IMG/VR virus record: IMGVR_UViG_3300036944_001324
Coordinates: 186,001 to 250,000 of that record
Reading direction: 5' to 3' (one strand)
From: a virus
Length of the DNA: 64,000 bases
Shown: positions 2,483 through 53,680 of the stretch, one piece after another
How the letters are laid out: each line of letters starts with the position of its first letter
Position numbering within the stretch: the stretch's first letter is position 1
The notes under the pieces: model-generated
The model's database searches: none
Told to the model about the DNA's origin: nothing
Seen by the model: the letters and a program-made list of their open reading frames with translations, nothing else
Program-made: the position numbers and the translations under genes

Positions 2483-4660
2483 ATGGCTGCCTCTATCAAG
2501 CTGACTGTAGCGTCCCACCACTACAAAGTCGAGCCACGAACTCAGGAAGCAAAGGAAATGCTTTTTGAGTTCACTCGCCGTTTCTTGAAAGTGGACTTTC
2601 AAGGTAACGTTAGATCTATTACCACGTTCGCGGCTGCTAACAAATCGCGGTCGTGGTTCAGATTTCACATCAACAGTCTCACTGAGTTTTACATGTTTGC
2701 GAGAAATCGCAACTACCTGAAAGAACAGATGGAGATTGTGGTTCGGCCTTACATCGAACTAGCCAAGGTCGACCTTCCTGTAAAAGAACACTGGGAGGTT
2801 CGTGTTGATCAAGTACCGATTGTCGACTACCTGACCAAACCCATCGCTGTTGACGAACCCAAAGCCAAGCTAGTGGGACTTCAGACAGGCGGCGGTAAAG
2901 CGATACCGAACGATACGCTCGTTAAAACACCTGATGGTTGGGTGGCTAACAAGGACCTCAAGGTAGGTGATACCATCGTTGCATGGGACGGCACGCACTC
3001 CAAAGTCACTGGTTTGTTCCCTCAGGGTCTGGTTGAAGTCTGCACTATGCGCTTTGACGATGGGCGAGAGCGCGTGTGCTCTTGGGATCACCTCTGGCGC
3101 GTTTACGTTAGCGAGTGTCCTATTCCTCAGGTATTGACGTCCAGGCAAATGGAAAGCCTTCTCTACAGCGGTAAAGGCCTGCGCATCGACTTGCACCTTG
3201 CCGCTACAGAAGAAGACAAAGCCGCTTTCGCAGAAGCCATCAAGGGTAAAGAAGACCCTCACTTGAGCTATCGTTATACCTTGAGACCCAAGTCTCAAGA
3301 AGAGCTGGAACGTCTGACCAAACTAGCCTGGGCTTGTGGCGCCAGAGCTAGCAGTGTCAAGCTTACTGACGAGAAGTTCTTGCTCTACGTTTTCACGAAC
3401 GATGACAGCTTCGCAGCCCGGACTATGTCTGTTGTTGCGATACGCCGCGGTGGTGGATCTAGGGAGATGCAGTGTATCTCCATCGATCATCCTGATCGAC
3501 TCTTCATCATCGAAGACTACATCGTCACTCACAACACGTTCACCGCCATCAAGTCGATCAGTGACATCGGGCACAAAGTAGCTGTCGTGCTCAAGCCAAA
3601 GTACATCGATAAATGGGTGGATGACTTCACCGATGAAACCAAGGGTATTTTGGACATCAGTGAAAAAGAGATCATGACGATCCAAGGTAGCGCAGAGCTC
3701 ATGGCTCTGACTAAACTGGTCGAGATCCCTGGGGCTTTGGACAAGTACAAGATCTTCATCTTCTCTAACCGAACGTTCGACAACTACCTCAAAGCTTACG
3801 AGTTGCTGGGCTCTGACATCACCGCCATGGGTTACATGGTCGAGCCTGACTACCTGTTCGAGCGCATGGGTGTGGGTATTCGCTTGATTGATGAGGTGCA
3901 TGAAGAGTTTCACGCCAACTTCCGGCAGGACTTGTACACACACGTTCACATGTCGATCAGCTTGTCTGCAACGCTGATATCGCGTGATCCTACGCTGATG
4001 CGGATGTATGAGACGGCTTATCCACAGGCAACGCGTTACAAAGCACCGCCTTTGGAGAGGTACACAACGAGTTACGGGGTGTATTACAACTCCAATCCGA
4101 ACTACCGCTTGAAAACTTCCGAGCGAGGTCAGTCCTCCTACAGCCACACGGCTTACGAGAGCTGTATCATGAACAATAAAACGTTCATGAAAGGCTACGG
4201 TGATATGATCAAACACTACCTTGATAAAGGGTTTGTTCAGAACTATGAACCTGGGCACAAAGCTATCGTGTTTGCGGCGACCATCGACATGTGTACCCGG
4301 CTTAAGGATCACTTGTCGGATGCTTACCCGCAGTTCTCTGTGCGGCGCTTTGTAACAGGCGATGATTACCATGCTGACTACCAAGCTCCCGATATTCGTG
4401 TAACGACAATCGGCAAGGGTGGTACGGGTTTGGACATCAAGAACCTCACAGATGCACACATGACTAACGCCTTGGATTCCATTCAGCAAAACATCCAAGC
4501 GTTCGGTCGTCTTCGCAACCTCCTTCCCAAAGAGACAAGGTTCTTTTGGTATACCAATCGACGTGTCCCTAAACACGTCAAGTACCATGCGAAGAAGATG
4601 CAATTGATGAAGGAAAGAGCGCTTAGCGTGTCCAACATCGACTACATGCCACAACTATAG
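2483..4660 (+). CDS. SF2 (DEAD/SNF2-type) helicase with intein
   Basis: A 725-residue precursor; removing residues 140-351 leaves a 513-residue helicase. After splicing, motif I reads QTGGGKT (Walker A). Later motifs of superfamily 2 follow in order: DEVH (motif II, 'LIDEVHEEFH'), SLSATL (motif III), 'KAIVFAATI' (motif IV region), 'VTTIGKGGTGLDIK' (motif V) and 'QAFGRLRN' (motif VI, with the Arg finger). It should unwind or remodel DNA or RNA using ATP, comparable to T4 UvsW-type enzymes, but the exact role is inference. Residues 1-125 are a helical N-terminal domain. The gene is monocistronic between a 222-base leader and a bidirectional terminator. Unspliced protein would lack a working P-loop. 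Confidence 0.88.
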   Translation: MAASIKLTVASHHYKVEPRTQEAKEMLFEFTRRFLKVDFQGNVRSITTFAAANKSRSWFRFHINSLTEFYMFARNRNYLKEQMEIVVRPYIELAKVDLPVKEHWEVRVDQVPIVDYLTKPIAVDEPKAKLVGLQTGGGKAIPNDTLVKTPDGWVANKDLKVGDTIVAWDGTHSKVTGLFPQGLVEVCTMRFDDGRERVCSWDHLWRVYVSECPIPQVLTSRQMESLLYSGKGLRIDLHLAATEEDKAAFAEAIKGKEDPHLSYRYTLRPKSQEELERLTKLAWACGARASSVKLTDEKFLLYVFTNDDSFAARTMSVVAIRRGGGSREMQCISIDHPDRLFIIEDYIVTHNTFTAIKSISDIGHKVAVVLKPKYIDKWVDDFTDETKGILDISEKEIMTIQGSAELMALTKLVEIPGALDKYKIFIFSNRTFDNYLKAYELLGSDITAMGYMVEPDYLFERMGVGIRLIDEVHEEFHANFRQDLYTHVHMSISLSATLISRDPTLMRMYETAYPQATRYKAPPLERYTTSYGVYYNSNPNYRLKTSERGQSSYSHTAYESCIMNNKTFMKGYGDMIKHYLDKGFVQNYEPGHKAIVFAATIDMCTRLKDHLSDAYPQFSVRRFVTGDDYHADYQAPDIRVTTIGKGGTGLDIKNLTDAHMTNALDSIQQNIQAFGRLRNLLPKETRFFWYTNRRVPKHVKYHAKKMQLMKERALSVSNIDYMPQL
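2900..3535 (+). other. Mini-intein with class 3 signature in the Walker A loop
   Basis: Residues A140-N351 of the helicase precursor. The N-terminus is Ala, not Cys or Ser. Block A is 'NDTLVKTPDGW', block B contains S-W-D-H203-L-W205, block F is C331-I-S-I-D, and the end is V-T349-H-N351 followed by Thr+1. W205, C331 and T349 fit the W-C-T triad that defines class 3 inteins, which start splicing from the block F Cys. The roughly 120 residues between blocks B and F contain no clear LAGLIDADG or HNH motif, although 'LTKLAWACGARAS' could be an endonuclease relic. The insertion point is exactly between Lys and Thr of GGGK-T. Confidence 0.88.
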
Positions 4661-11937: not shown

Positions 11938-14900
11938 GTGAGTACTATTTATCTCGGAACCATCGATGGTGGTGGTGACGGTAAAGCCTTGTTGCTTGCC
12001 GCTATCAATGCGGCGCAAGGCACCAACTACACACTGGTTGATTGGGATTTTGGCATCCCTGAACTGGTGACAGTTCCGCAGCCTACACACAACTCCAAGG
12101 TGGCGTTTGGCCCCAAGGAAGGCACAGGCGCTTACGGTGTCAAGACCATCTACTACAACCGGATTCACGCCAGTGAACTCGGTAACGTCATTGTTCCGTA
12201 CTCCGGTGAGATGTACATCACTGACGTGCTCGCCAAGATCAATGAGAAGTACGGTATCCTCATCAAGCCCGAGGACATCTACGACGCTGTGATCCCGGTG
12301 CCTGGTGGTGGGCAAAACCAAGTGCAAGTGAACTTGGAATTCCGTCCGGAATCCATCATCTTCTACAACGCGGTTCAAATCCAAATCGGACAGAACGACC
12401 CCACTGGCGACACGGTGCCTACCGCTCCTTTTGAAGCGTACCACACCTTCATGTTCAACCAGGCTCAGAACTTCGAGATTGGTGGGACACCGTACGTGAC
12501 GCTGGAGCCTTTCAGCCTTGCGGTTGATCGCGACCGGACGCGCCAACGGGTGGGTTTGATGCGTGACAACACGTTCACCAACAATGCGTCCGCTCACATT
12601 CGTGAGCGCATGACGCTCGCACAGTTCGAAGCTCGCAAGGATTACCTGCCTTTCGTGGGTATGTGGCTTGACGACGTGAGCAAACGTCACTACGCGGTCA
12701 ACCCCGTCGGTGACGTTTACATGAGTGAGTTGAACGTTGATGGTTGGGAGTTCGTTGCCAATGCGCTCGGTTACGACAGCACCGATCCAACGGTTGTGAG
12801 CAACGGGTTCAACAACCCCTACGTCAAAGCTGTGACCACCGACGCTAACGGCGTGACGTGGTTCTTGGCATTGGGATCAGATGGTCTGCCGCGTGTTTAC
12901 AACACGAGCACCAGCCATTCAGTCTGGACACCTATCGCTACGCAGACGCTGCGCATGATCTCGCTCAAAGCTGCGGCGTGGAATAGCGTGAAGGTGCTCG
13001 ACGCACTTCACATCGACAACAAACTGCATTTGCTCATTCGGGCAGGCGAGCAGTACGACATCCACCCGAACAAGAGCCGTGATACTCCTTCTGTGGAAAT
13101 CATCTCCACCAACGGTGGTGGTGTGGACTACTTCCCTCTGGGTGCAACGCTGGCGCAGTACTCCGGTATCGAGCTCGACACGGCTTCTACCGATGGTCAT
13201 TGGACCTTCGTGTCCCCGCGCGCTGGCGCTACGGTGGTGGACATCGCTGCATTGCTTCCGAGCAAGGTGAACAACAACACTTACGCAGTGTTCTACCGGC
13301 ATGTTGCAGGTAGCGAATACGTGGCTTCCATATTGCCTCATTCCTACCTGGGTGATTCGAGCGTTCGCGGCGAGATGAGCCTGCGTGCTTACCAGCTCCC
13401 TCTGGACGACATCCCTGCAGAAGTCGGTGGTGTTCCCGTGACCAACCACTACTTGGACGTGGTGGAGATTGTGGCACCTACCGAAGTAGCTGACTTCAAT
13501 CACTACTTCTTGAAGACCGGTACTCGCACACAGCTGAACTTCCTGTCCTACGGTGTGAAGGTGTTGACGTCGGTGGCTACTCGCACTGCACGCGCTCCTT
13601 GGTTTGAAAGCCAAGTGAACCTGACCTCGTCGCAACAACCCGTACAAGTGGTTGTACAGTGCAAGGGCCTTCGCAACCATCTGTTGTTCCAGAACGCAGA
13701 TGCAGTGCACCGGTTGTTGTTCCGTCAGAACAACAGTCAAACCACTTTCTCTGCCGAGGTGGATAGTTCCATCAAGTTGGCCGGGCATACGGGGTTCTCC
13801 CATGTTTGCACGAATGCAGCTGGCGTGTACGTACCGCCAGCCGTGATTGACTCTCCGCTATTGACAACAGCCTTGACGGTTGATCAGGACTTCGAATCGG
13901 TGTTTGCGGATATCAACTATTCGTTCACCGCCAAGGATGCTACCGACAACTATCGCTGGTACACAGCGACAGCAACCAACCAGCCTTTGGCCTTGCGTAC
14001 CCCAAGTCGCAATTACGCCTTCATGGGTAACGCGCCATGTTTTGTTGGGTCTGAGAACAACGAGCTGATCTACTGGGCGCCTGGCGGTAACGGCGTGTTC
14101 CGCAGCACCAACAAGGGCAAGAGCTGGCAAGAGTTTGCGGCTGCTCCTTCGTTCTACAGCCAAGAGCGTACTCCAACCTCTTTGCTGAACATCATCGGAG
14201 CTGCCAGTCTGCGTTTGCGCCCTGAGCACTTCCTTGAGAGCACCTACGTCAGTGGTGTTCTGATGGTTGAGACGAAGATCAATGAGCCGGTCGAAGTCTA
14301 CGACGTCAACGCTGAGTTGACAAGTCGTGCTACCACCATGGCTGACCACATTCTCTATCGGGTGCAAGCCGGTGACAAGACCTACGTAGCATCAACACCA
14401 CAGACTGGTTACGGTATCAACGCACTGAGCACGTACTCGCCTCGCCGCATTCTGGGCTGGGATACCGATGCGGCTAACAACTTCGAGACCATCGGTCAGT
14501 ACACGACGACGCCAGCCGCGCCGTACGCTACACCGCACAACCTCGACAACTACATGTTCAACATCACTGGAACACTTCGTGATTTCAGTCGTGATGCCAA
14601 GTACTTGGGCTTCCGTCACTGGGTGCTGGTTGACGATGCTGATGTCTGGAGTCTGCACTTCACCAACGCGGTCCAGCCTGAGAAAACGATCGGGATGTTT
14701 GGTTCTGCCAACATCACACTCACTGCGTTCAAACCTGAAGTGAGTTTCCATCTGTGGGACTACTTGGATGCACCTCAGCAGTACATTCCGTATGTCTTCT
14801 ACGGCGGCAAGCGCATTGTCTTGCTTGAGCGTTTGGATGATTTGCTTGACTTCACTGCCACGCAGCACATCCTGAACATTCCGGGTGACAATGGGAACGC

Positions 14901-15312
14901 TTTGGTTCCTGTCCCGATGCACAATGCCAATCGTCGCGATTACTTGCTGGCTCAGAAGGCCAACGGTATCTTCCGTGTGACTTACGTATGGGACGGTATC
15001 AACAAGGTGTCCACGATCGATCTGGAGAAGATCTTTGACCTGGCAGCTGGTGGTCTCAATACCCTTGATATCATCTCCGGTACTCGCACCGGCGTTGCGT
15101 CTCAGAACGCACCGCTTGAAACCATGATCCCTGATCAACTGCCTGAAGGTACTGAGATCGGCTGGTACTGCGTTGGCGTGGATAAACACACCCGCTTTGC
15201 TGATGGTGCTGGTGGTTACACCGAAACTGTTACTGTCGACAGTGCCGACTGCGGCTTCGTGCAGTCGATGGTGGTGGGTGACGGCTCTGGCATCTCCGGA
15301 GGTGAGGGTTGA
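11938..15312 (+). CDS. Large virion structural protein, tail/fibre type (1124 aa)
   Basis: GTG start at 11938 preceded by TAGGAGC. The first 150 residues ('YLGTIDGGGDGKALLLAAINAAQGTNYT' ... 'YSGEMYITDVLAKINEKYGILIKPEDI') resemble an N-terminal domain repeated in jumbo-phage tail and baseplate proteins. The remainder is beta-rich, Ser/Thr/Asn-rich sequence typical of propeller or fibre folds, with one BNR/sialidase-like Asp-box ('FRSTNKGKSWQE', about residue 725). No catalytic residues stand out. It shares a TTGA start-stop overlap with the next gene, so both are made from one message. Probably a tail-tip or fibre component; the exact place in the virion is unknown. Confidence 0.82.
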   Translation: MSTIYLGTIDGGGDGKALLLAAINAAQGTNYTLVDWDFGIPELVTVPQPTHNSKVAFGPKEGTGAYGVKTIYYNRIHASELGNVIVPYSGEMYITDVLAKINEKYGILIKPEDIYDAVIPVPGGGQNQVQVNLEFRPESIIFYNAVQIQIGQNDPTGDTVPTAPFEAYHTFMFNQAQNFEIGGTPYVTLEPFSLAVDRDRTRQRVGLMRDNTFTNNASAHIRERMTLAQFEARKDYLPFVGMWLDDVSKRHYAVNPVGDVYMSELNVDGWEFVANALGYDSTDPTVVSNGFNNPYVKAVTTDANGVTWFLALGSDGLPRVYNTSTSHSVWTPIATQTLRMISLKAAAWNSVKVLDALHIDNKLHLLIRAGEQYDIHPNKSRDTPSVEIISTNGGGVDYFPLGATLAQYSGIELDTASTDGHWTFVSPRAGATVVDIAALLPSKVNNNTYAVFYRHVAGSEYVASILPHSYLGDSSVRGEMSLRAYQLPLDDIPAEVGGVPVTNHYLDVVEIVAPTEVADFNHYFLKTGTRTQLNFLSYGVKVLTSVATRTARAPWFESQVNLTSSQQPVQVVVQCKGLRNHLLFQNADAVHRLLFRQNNSQTTFSAEVDSSIKLAGHTGFSHVCTNAAGVYVPPAVIDSPLLTTALTVDQDFESVFADINYSFTAKDATDNYRWYTATATNQPLALRTPSRNYAFMGNAPCFVGSENNELIYWAPGGNGVFRSTNKGKSWQEFAAAPSFYSQERTPTSLLNIIGAASLRLRPEHFLESTYVSGVLMVETKINEPVEVYDVNAELTSRATTMADHILYRVQAGDKTYVASTPQTGYGINALSTYSPRRILGWDTDAANNFETIGQYTTTPAAPYATPHNLDNYMFNITGTLRDFSRDAKYLGFRHWVLVDDADVWSLHFTNAVQPEKTIGMFGSANITLTAFKPEVSFHLWDYLDAPQQYIPYVFYGGKRIVLLERLDDLLDFTATQHILNIPGDNGNALVPVPMHNANRRDYLLAQKANGIFRVTYVWDGINKVSTIDLEKIFDLAAGGLNTLDIISGTRTGVASQNAPLETMIPDQLPEGTEIGWYCVGVDKHTRFADGAGGYTETVTVDSADCGFVQSMVVGDGSGISGGEG

Positions 15313-47522: not shown

Positions 47523-48869
47523 TTATCCACCAAACCGCATTCCGATGGGTGCTTTCATACGGACGTACTCATCGAATTGCTTCTGAAGCTTTTCATGCTT
47601 CTCTGTCAGTTCTTGGAGAGCTTTCACCAAGACAGGAACAATAGAAGATTCGTTGATCTTCAATTTCTCCAATTGACTGGTGTCAACGATCACTGGTTTG
47701 TCGCCTTCGAGTTCCAGGATGTCTTGGGCAAGCCATCCGTAACGAACTACCCCGACACCAATGTCTGAATCACGGTTCTCGCGATAACGATAAGCGACAG
47801 GCTTGAGCTTCATCACAAAGTCAAGGCCGTGTTGAACGTCAGTGATGTCTGTCTTGTCGCGTTTGTCAGACACAATGGTCCAGGAGACCTTGACGTAAGC
47901 GTGCTCCACCGAAGAGGAACCAACCACGACACGGTTGTTCTCACTGGTCACGTCCATGACAGGGGAGTAAACACCCGCGTTGTTGACACCACCGAGGATG
48001 ATGTTGCCACTACCTGTCGACAAACGAGCACCCGCAGACGAGCCCAGACCGATGTTGTTGTTGCCGCCAATCAAAGAACGAAGTGCTTGGGCACCGACAG
48101 CTGTGTTGCCGTTACCAGTACCGCTAGCGAGTAGAGCTTCGAAGCCGAAGGCTACGTTGTAACTACCCATGTAGTTAAACCGCATGGAATGGTAACCGGA
48201 CGCAACGTTACCAACACCTTGCAGGTTGTTGTGCATGGACTCTTTACCAACCGCTACGTTAAAGCGACCAGTGCTGTTGTCCCGCAATGCAAGAGAGCCA
48301 ATGGCTGTGTTGTCGGAACCCGTGGTGTTGCGACCAAGGGACAAATTACCAATAGCGGTATTGTCATCACCCGTAGTCAGTTTGCCAAGAGCACCATTTC
48401 CAACAGCTGTAGTGTTGGAGGCTTCGGATGAAGATCCGATAGCGCGGGCACCAACGGCGGTGTTGTTGTTACCGGTGGTGTTGAGTGTGAGAGCACGTGC
48501 ACCCAATGCCGTATTGTTGTTCCCGGTGACGTTCAGAGTCAAACTGGAGTAGCCGAGCGAAGTGTTGTAACTGCCGGTGGTATTCTCACGAAGAGAAGCA
48601 AAACCAACCGCAGAGTTCTCTTTGCCGACGGTGGATTCTTTGAGCGCTGCGAAACCAATAGCCGTTTGGCCATGAATGTTTATTGCCGACGACAAAGTAA
48701 AATGACCCACGGCAACGTTGCCGTCACCGAATGAGTTATTCATCAGGGCGCAGCGCCCGATAGCCGTGTTGTTGTTCCCGGTAGTCAGAGCTGCAAGGGA
48801 TGCATAACCGAAGGTTGTATTTGTTCCTGCAGTTGGCGTGCTACTCGTTTGTTGATTGCTATCAGCCAT
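47523..48869 (-). CDS. Tail spike/fibre with YadA-head-like repeats and S74 chaperone (448 aa)
   Basis: Residues 20-290 consist of about 17 repeats of the type 'GNNNTAIGxxAL' and 'TTGSDNTAIGSLAL', as in the trimeric YadA head. The C-terminal 110 residues match the peptidase S74 intramolecular chaperone: 'SDKRDKTDI' (Ser with the Lys that follows), 'PVAYRYRE', 'GWLAQDILE' and a coiled coil at the end. In this family the chaperone drives trimerisation and then cuts itself off. Repeats make the gene prone to recombination, consistent with host-range change. Confidence 0.9.
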   Translation of the reverse strand: MADSNQQTSSTPTAGTNTTFGYASLAALTTGNNNTAIGRCALMNNSFGDGNVAVGHFTLSSAINIHGQTAIGFAALKESTVGKENSAVGFASLRENTTGSYNTSLGYSSLTLNVTGNNNTALGARALTLNTTGNNNTAVGARAIGSSSEASNTTAVGNGALGKLTTGDDNTAIGNLSLGRNTTGSDNTAIGSLALRDNSTGRFNVAVGKESMHNNLQGVGNVASGYHSMRFNYMGSYNVAFGFEALLASGTGNGNTAVGAQALRSLIGGNNNIGLGSSAGARLSTGSGNIILGGVNNAGVYSPVMDVTSENNRVVVGSSSVEHAYVKVSWTIVSDKRDKTDITDVQHGLDFVMKLKPVAYRYRENRDSDIGVGVVRYGWLAQDILELEGDKPVIVDTSQLEKLKINESSIVPVLVKALQELTEKHEKLQKQFDEYVRMKAPIGMRFGG

Positions 48870-52732: not shown

Positions 52733-53680
52733 GTGTTCATTCTCAGTGGAAGGCAACGCATCTTTGTCTCGATAGCGGCTTATCGAGATAGTGAAGCGCC
52801 TGCCACGGTACGTGATTTACTGGAGAAGGCCGACAGACCTCATCTGGTCAAGATCGGCATTCTCAATCAGATTTGTCCCAAAGAAGACATCCGCTGCAAA
52901 GTAGGTGGCTGGACAAATGTTCAAGAGCGTATCGTTGACTACACGGAGTCCAAAGGAGCGTGCTGGGCACGCTCCTACATATGGACGAATCTCCTTGAAG
53001 ACGAAGACTTCGTTCTTCAGATAGACAGCCATAGTCGCTTTGACCATGGCTGGGACACAACGCTGCTTAAAACTTTCGAGAAGCTTCAAGACGCTTCAGC
53101 GGTACTTACCCATTACCCGATGCGGTACGACCCCTTGACGAACGTTAAGAGCGCTCAGATGTACACTCGCTTTGACATCCAGAGTTTCAACCAATACGGG
53201 TTCCCTGTTATTAGCTCGGCGGCGTTGGCACTGAAAGACGCACCGGTAACACCTGCTAAAACAGCTTTCATAGCTGGTGGTTGTTTGTTCACACGGGCAA
53301 GAACCATCAAGAACGTTCCGTACGATCCCCATCTATACTTCCAAGGTGAGGAGATCAACTACGCAATCCGGTTGTGGACACATGGTCACAACCTGTACTT
53401 GCCTAACAAGCCCTTCATGTACCATGACTACGGTAATGGTCGTGCAAGGCGTATGCATTGGCAGGATGTACAGCGATGGAAGCAGATGAACGATCTGTCC
53501 ATCATGCGAAACAAGCATGTTCTTGATCTTGGTATTGCTACTGACCCAGCTTCGTTGATTGATATCGACAAGTACAGTCTTGGTAAACACCGCACCCTGT
53601 CAGATTGGGAGCGATTCTCTGGCGTCTATTTGAGAGCCCAGACCTTGACTGAAAAAGCCAAGACTGGTTCATTCCAGTGA
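52733..53680 (+). CDS. GlcNAc-transferase-like glycosyltransferase (315 aa)
   Basis: GTG start. The order of motifs follows the eukaryote-type UDP-GlcNAc:hydroxyproline/Skp1 glycosyltransferase family (GT60): 'IFVSIAAYRDSEAPATV' (nucleotide strand), 'ARSYIW' and 'DFVLQIDSHSRFDHGWD' with the IDSH metal-binding site (about residue 96), 'GGCLFTRA', 'LYFQGEE', and 'YHDYGNGRARRMHWQD' near the C-terminus. Such enzymes add GlcNAc to protein or polysaccharide acceptors. It lies in the fibre operon, so it may glycosylate a fibre or modify the host surface. The acceptor is unknown. Confidence 0.82.
   Translation: MFILSGRQRIFVSIAAYRDSEAPATVRDLLEKADRPHLVKIGILNQICPKEDIRCKVGGWTNVQERIVDYTESKGACWARSYIWTNLLEDEDFVLQIDSHSRFDHGWDTTLLKTFEKLQDASAVLTHYPMRYDPLTNVKSAQMYTRFDIQSFNQYGFPVISSAALALKDAPVTPAKTAFIAGGCLFTRARTIKNVPYDPHLYFQGEEINYAIRLWTHGHNLYLPNKPFMYHDYGNGRARRMHWQDVQRWKQMNDLSIMRNKHVLDLGIATDPASLIDIDKYSLGKHRTLSDWERFSGVYLRAQTLTEKAKTGSFQ

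Follow-up and report, generated by a model that had tools for sequence, protein, structure and literature searches.

The 64,000-nucleotide stretch of phage DNA analysed here (the window) carries a gene for an SF2 helicase whose ATP-binding loop is interrupted by a class 3 intein. With high confidence we read this element as a class 3 intein of the ordinary kind, probably active and no longer equipped with its homing endonuclease, that lies in motif I of an SF2 helicase from a phiKZ-like jumbo phage. Its removal yields a protein of 513 amino acids in which TGGGK-T is restored. The features of the gene, given in window coordinates with residues numbered along the precursor, are as follows.

2483-4660, plus strand: SF2 (XPB/UvsW-like) helicase precursor, 725 aa (PHROGs match, homologue alignment, profile)
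2483-2899, plus strand: N-extein, 139 aa, with the Walker A sequence TGGGK at its end, 2885-2899 (alignment)
2900-3535, plus strand: class 3 intein, 212 aa, running from A1 to H211-N212, residues 140-351 (alignment, profile, AF2 fold)
3089-3097, plus strand: block B His-Leu-Trp, with His203 (B:10) and Trp205 (B:12) (alignment)
3107-3457, plus strand: linker of roughly 117 aa joining block B to block F, without LAGLIDADG (alignment)
3473-3475, plus strand: Cys331, block F:4, the predicted first nucleophile (alignment)
3527-3535, plus strand: block G Thr349 (G:5)-His350-Asn351 (alignment)
3536-3538, plus strand: Thr352, the +1 residue and the Walker A Thr once spliced (alignment)
3536-4657, plus strand: C-extein, 374 aa (alignment)
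3890-3901, 3965-3973 and 4496-4516, plus strand: the C-extein helicase motifs DEVH, SAT and QxxGRxR (alignment)

The window is part of a 271,654-nucleotide IMG/VR virus record from a phiKZ-like jumbo phage. A gene for a phage RNA polymerase beta subunit (phrog_2962, E 5e-108) is located near the helicase gene, and helicase homologues adjoin RNA polymerase genes in phiKZ-like jumbo phages. The extein matches the phrog_16 DNA helicase (PHROGs, E 1.1e-26). Its C-terminal part, searched as a profile, finds XPB/Rad25, FANCM and HsdR, all of which are SF2 proteins. Motifs I, II, III and VI are all present (TGGGK|T, DEVH, SAT and QxxGRxR), and therefore selection presumably still acts on the helicase, which would need splicing. 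The phage context and the SF2 host gene named by the original prediction are thus both upheld.

There are no further inteins of this kind elsewhere in the 271,654-nucleotide record. Single-sequence scans of viral contigs found no close relatives of the phage, and blastn with the helicase gene returned two records matching over 81 bp and no close relative. Other genes in the window include one whose product, a tail spike or virion protein, contains a Peptidase_S74 chaperone domain (47526-48869, minus strand) and one for a GlcNAc-type glycosyltransferase (52733-53680, plus strand). There is also a gene for an 1124-amino-acid protein (11938-15312, plus strand) whose first 150 or so residues resemble virion structural families (phrog_1037, E 2e-19), while its other 970 residues lack any PHROGs match.

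Boundaries, signature and fold of the intein

The intein splits Walker A exactly between Lys139 and Thr, reading TGGGK|A...THN|T. Intein-free homologues are found in Burkholderia phage FLC6 (536 aa), Pseudomonas phage DT01 (517 aa), Erwinia phage Ea35-70 (515 aa) and Serratia phage Totoro (505 aa), and in the alignment all four read GK-T or GK-S at the point where the window intein sits. This agreement proves the intein boundaries. The original prediction had placed the insertion at 2900-3535 between the Walker A Lys and Thr, which is exact, and the empty alleles that it proposed to look for exist in these four phages and in Moabite.

Position 1 of the intein is Ala, and no Cys, Ser or Thr is present there, as is demanded of class 3. 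Trp B:12, Cys F:4 and Thr G:5 align with their counterparts in related and in solved class 3 inteins, and these residues (Trp205, Cys331 and Thr349) occupy intein positions 66, 192 and 210. The B:12 residue is W205 of the His-Leu-Trp sequence and not the neighbouring W201. His B:10, the penultimate His350, the terminal Asn351 and Thr352 at +1 complete the class 3 characters, and the published class 3 signature is the same set as that found here (PMC3196547, PMC5222942). The alignment therefore bears out the W-C-T assignment as originally numbered.

When the insert by itself is used as a tblastn query, related phage inteins are recovered with E values of 1e-20 to 1e-21. A profile of the window intein and its relatives, when compared with the PDB, matches solved class 3 inteins at E 1e-14 to 1e-15, namely MchDnaB1 (6RIX/6RIY) and Msm DnaBi1 (6BS8). 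The same profile also matches gp41-1 inteins, the best of which is 6RIZ, a WCT-grafted form. The AlphaFold2 model (pLDDT 93.1) predicts a HINT fold, and its five best structural matches in the PDB are all class 3 inteins (MchDnaB1 and Msm DnaBi1), with 6RIY, 6BS8 and 6RIX at E 3e-8 to 2e-7 and with hedgehog and BIL domains far lower. The sequence, profile and structural matches to phage and class 3 inteins indicate that the insert is not a chance resemblance. Both the profile comparison and the structure prediction had been suggested as checks on the class 3 assignment, which they support together with the full signature. General Pfam and NCBIfam models and PF14890 make no call on the window intein, so annotation pipelines would miss it.

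The two mycobacterial DnaB inteins share the class and the HINT fold with the window intein, and Msm DnaBi1 is likewise inserted in a P-loop. However, the mycobacterial inteins interrupt DnaB-family proteins, precede a Ser at +1 and are 139-146 amino acids long, whereas the window intein has an SF2 helicase host, Thr+1 and 212 amino acids. The TerL1-a inteins of mycobacteriophages, a classic case in which the intein separates the P-loop Lys from the Thr (PMC5050341), also occupy this site in a phage ATPase, but there the extein is a terminase. The class 1 intein gp41-1 (6QAZ) resembles the window intein in its N-terminal block and in its THN end. It begins with Cys1 and lacks Trp B:12 and Cys F:4, whereas the window intein begins with Ala1 and has both.

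Frequency and history among phage inteins

A scan of viral contigs with the intein alignment and two short peptide patterns found at least 521 encoded relatives. Among the matches listed, 81 distinct related phage inteins were examined, and Trp B:12, His B:10, Cys F:4 and the other signature positions are invariant in all 81; the search patterns themselves included Cys F:4 and the THN end, which are thus biased in this set, while Trp B:12 and His B:10 were absent from every pattern. All but two of these listed inteins (79/81) follow a P-loop-type Lys, with Thr or Ser directly after the intein, and their hosts are helicases and other ATPase genes.

There are 80 viral-contig relatives of the helicase that were found with the C-extein alone, without reference to the intein. 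Eleven of them are occupied, all at GK|T and all by inteins that end in THN with Thr at +1, and the 10 inteins that can be read whole are all WCT. The remaining 69 are empty and have Thr (39), Ser (17) or Gly (13) at the +1 position. Far from being rare, P-loop class 3 inteins are common among phages. The original description of the class as uncommon does not stand, given the 521 or more encoded relatives and the 11 of 80 occupied helicases.

A tree of WCT inteins built from 108 splicing-block columns places the window intein on a long branch (1.11) with no supported sister, and within the splicing blocks it is at most 51-56% identical to any relative. To place the helicase inteins on this tree takes nine label changes. 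A single origin for all helicase inteins at the GK|T site was rejected by an AU test (p 0.005) on the same 108 columns, with helicase membership set by a profile cut-off. As read from these few columns, the history fits repeated transfer among P-loop genes. Another P-loop intein, at locus L143:2998-4065, has Cys1 in addition to the full W-C-T set, and thus carries both possible first nucleophiles.

The helicase site in jumbo phages and the probable loss of the endonuclease

The same GK|T site is also occupied in LucasX, Rebecca, KpLz-2_45, VP4B, EL gp40, AerS_266 and FishSpeaker, as judged by alignment. Jumbo-phage inteins that share both the helicase family and the site with the window intein are those of Pseudomonas phage EL (gp40), Vibrio phage VP4B, Klebsiella phage KpLz-2_45, Aeromonas phage PS1, Xanthomonas phage LucasX, Erwinia phage Rebecca and Serratia phage Haymo. 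The jumbo-phage helicase inteins have the WCT, THN and Thr+1 signature in common with the window intein, which is 28-36% identical to the seven compared over the aligned intein. They range from 197 to 359 amino acids, and those of LucasX, Rebecca, AerS_266 and FishSpeaker have LAGLIDADG motifs, whereas the window intein has none. Inteins at this site can be sorted by size into those of 341-359 amino acids with LAGLIDADG, those of 285 and 248 amino acids with damaged motifs, and those of 197-228 amino acids without motifs, the last group being the one that includes the window intein. Empty, reduced and full LAGLIDADG alleles at a single site are the pattern that an ordinary cycle of homing, erosion and loss would give.

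Two pairs of sister phages differ at this site by one clean class 3 insertion. Serratia phage Haymo has a 348-amino-acid class 3 intein, whereas Moabite, recorded as the same species, is empty; their extein DNA is 100% identical upstream and 98.8% identical downstream, and the junction is seamless. Extein DNA of Ea35-70 (empty) and Rebecca (occupied) is 99.3% and 98.6% identical, with a single mismatch in the codon on either side of the junction. The downstream mismatch changes Ser to Thr at +1 in Rebecca, which is the pattern expected of co-conversion during homing. Because sister phages are intein-free at this site, an intein is dispensable there.

Serratia phage 2050HW, in which the gene occupies two ORFs (L013:1489-4051), was considered as a possible case of a naturally split class 3 intein and was rejected. 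In Haymo and BUCT660 the gene is a single intact ORF, shorter by one base than the 2050HW region, and a frameshift or sequencing error is the likelier reading of the 2050HW sequence. Separately, intein-containing helicases are misnamed 'terminase large subunit' in FishSpeaker and phiKT1028, 'DarB-like antirestriction' in PS1 and 'DOD-type homing endonuclease' in AerS_266. The shared intein probably drew these annotations, and the finding thus bears on wrong helicase gene names in public records.

The linker between blocks B and F lies at the endonuclease position and is about 65 residues longer than in minimal class 3 inteins (144-146 aa). An endonuclease domain is absent, as there is no LAGLIDADG motif and no match of the linker to the endonuclease (HEN) profile of the relatives, which agrees with the original statement that no endonuclease domain is evident. 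At 212 amino acids the intein nevertheless exceeds the usual mini-intein size of about 130-150, a range that is not strictly defining.

The full HEN profile gives a non-significant E of about 11 against the linker, and a profile of the HEN tail gives E 3, also not significant, with 6 of 2,000 shuffles scoring higher. An hhalign comparison of reduced inteins matches mainly the region adjoining block B and provides no significant support for a remnant. A Foldseek search with an AF2 model of the linker alone ranks PI-SceI first at a non-significant E of 0.41. In the AF2 model, linker residues 125-165 form a strand-helix-strand-strand element where relatives end their second LAGLIDADG repeat, and Gly147 aligns with this repeat region. 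The whole-intein model scores TM 0.66-0.68 against some PI-SceI structures versus about 0.5 against splicing-only inteins (self-coverage). The linker is a probable endonuclease remnant, for which the fold matches are suggestive and the sequence and linker-fold tests are not significant.

Splicing mechanism and rival explanations

We infer that the window intein splices, and likewise the sequence of its steps and the past of its endonuclease; the mechanism of class 3 is described in PMC3196547, PMC5222942 and PMC7664689. The helicase would be made as a 725-amino-acid precursor that is predicted to be inactive because its ATP-binding loop is split. C331, aided by His203, Trp205 and Thr349, would attack the Lys139-Ala140 bond and form the block F branched intermediate of class 3. 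The N-extein would then pass to Thr352, and cyclisation of Asn351 would release the 212-amino-acid intein, leaving Lys139 joined to Thr352 in a 513-amino-acid helicase with an intact Walker A motif. The intein most likely entered by endonuclease-driven homing, with the endonuclease being lost later.

One alternative is that the same intein has been domesticated as a switch, wherein splicing that responds to redox state, metal or temperature in the infected cell would time helicase activity. The interruption of Walker A and the loss of the LAGLIDADG motifs favour this reading, as does the P-loop class 3 intein of Msm DnaB, which oxidation shuts down by way of a disulfide that links its catalytic Cys to Cys48 (PMC6195587). 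The window intein also has a Cys at position 48. However, this agreement holds by count and not by register, since when counted from the conserved F-x-D-G the Cys48 of the window intein sits at Msm Tyr49, and an Msm-type redox cysteine was therefore rejected for this intein. Moreover, its Cys48 is unique among the 81 listed relatives, 74 of which have Y, F or W there, and sister phages manage without an intein at this site. Domestication as a switch is consequently unlikely. We consider it quite improbable that the intein was retained after endonuclease loss because splicing gates the helicase, for example by redox chemistry on C331 and a nearby Cys. In three other phage class 3 inteins (L107, L116 and L170) the Msm Cys48 column is Cys, and these are better redox candidates than the window intein.

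The long branch and the lost endonuclease could instead mark a decayed, non-splicing intein within a dead helicase, for which the inactive class 3-like intein Arsp-FB24 offers a precedent (PMC3196547). Arsp-FB24 lacks Cys F:4 and His B:10, but the window intein retains both, its catalytic residues and the helicase motifs are all intact and the frame is open, which makes a pseudogene very unlikely. A class 2 route, in which Thr+1 attacks the N-terminal junction directly despite the WCT residues, would suit the missing N-terminal nucleophile. Yet the three WCT mini-inteins tested and others cited all require Cys F:4 (PMC5222942), and Thr is a weak nucleophile, so that this route is highly improbable. 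The chance that the insert is a helicase insertion domain or a cleaving HINT domain rather than an intein is close to negligible: it is favoured by nothing but the shared HINT fold, and is opposed by the cleanly intein-free alleles of relatives and of sister phages, the full splicing signature and the position at which Walker A is split.

The window intein is a divergent addition to a known class, with no sign of domestication found, and as one more such member it is less useful than its surroundings. If true, a splicing-gated helicase would give a jumbo phage a naturally evolved switch that acts after translation. At one helicase site, phiKZ-like and related jumbo phages present all stages of the intein life cycle, from empty alleles to full LAGLIDADG, eroded and reduced ones. 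Sister phages of which one has the intein and the other lacks it provide a natural pair for asking whether a P-loop intein affects the phage.
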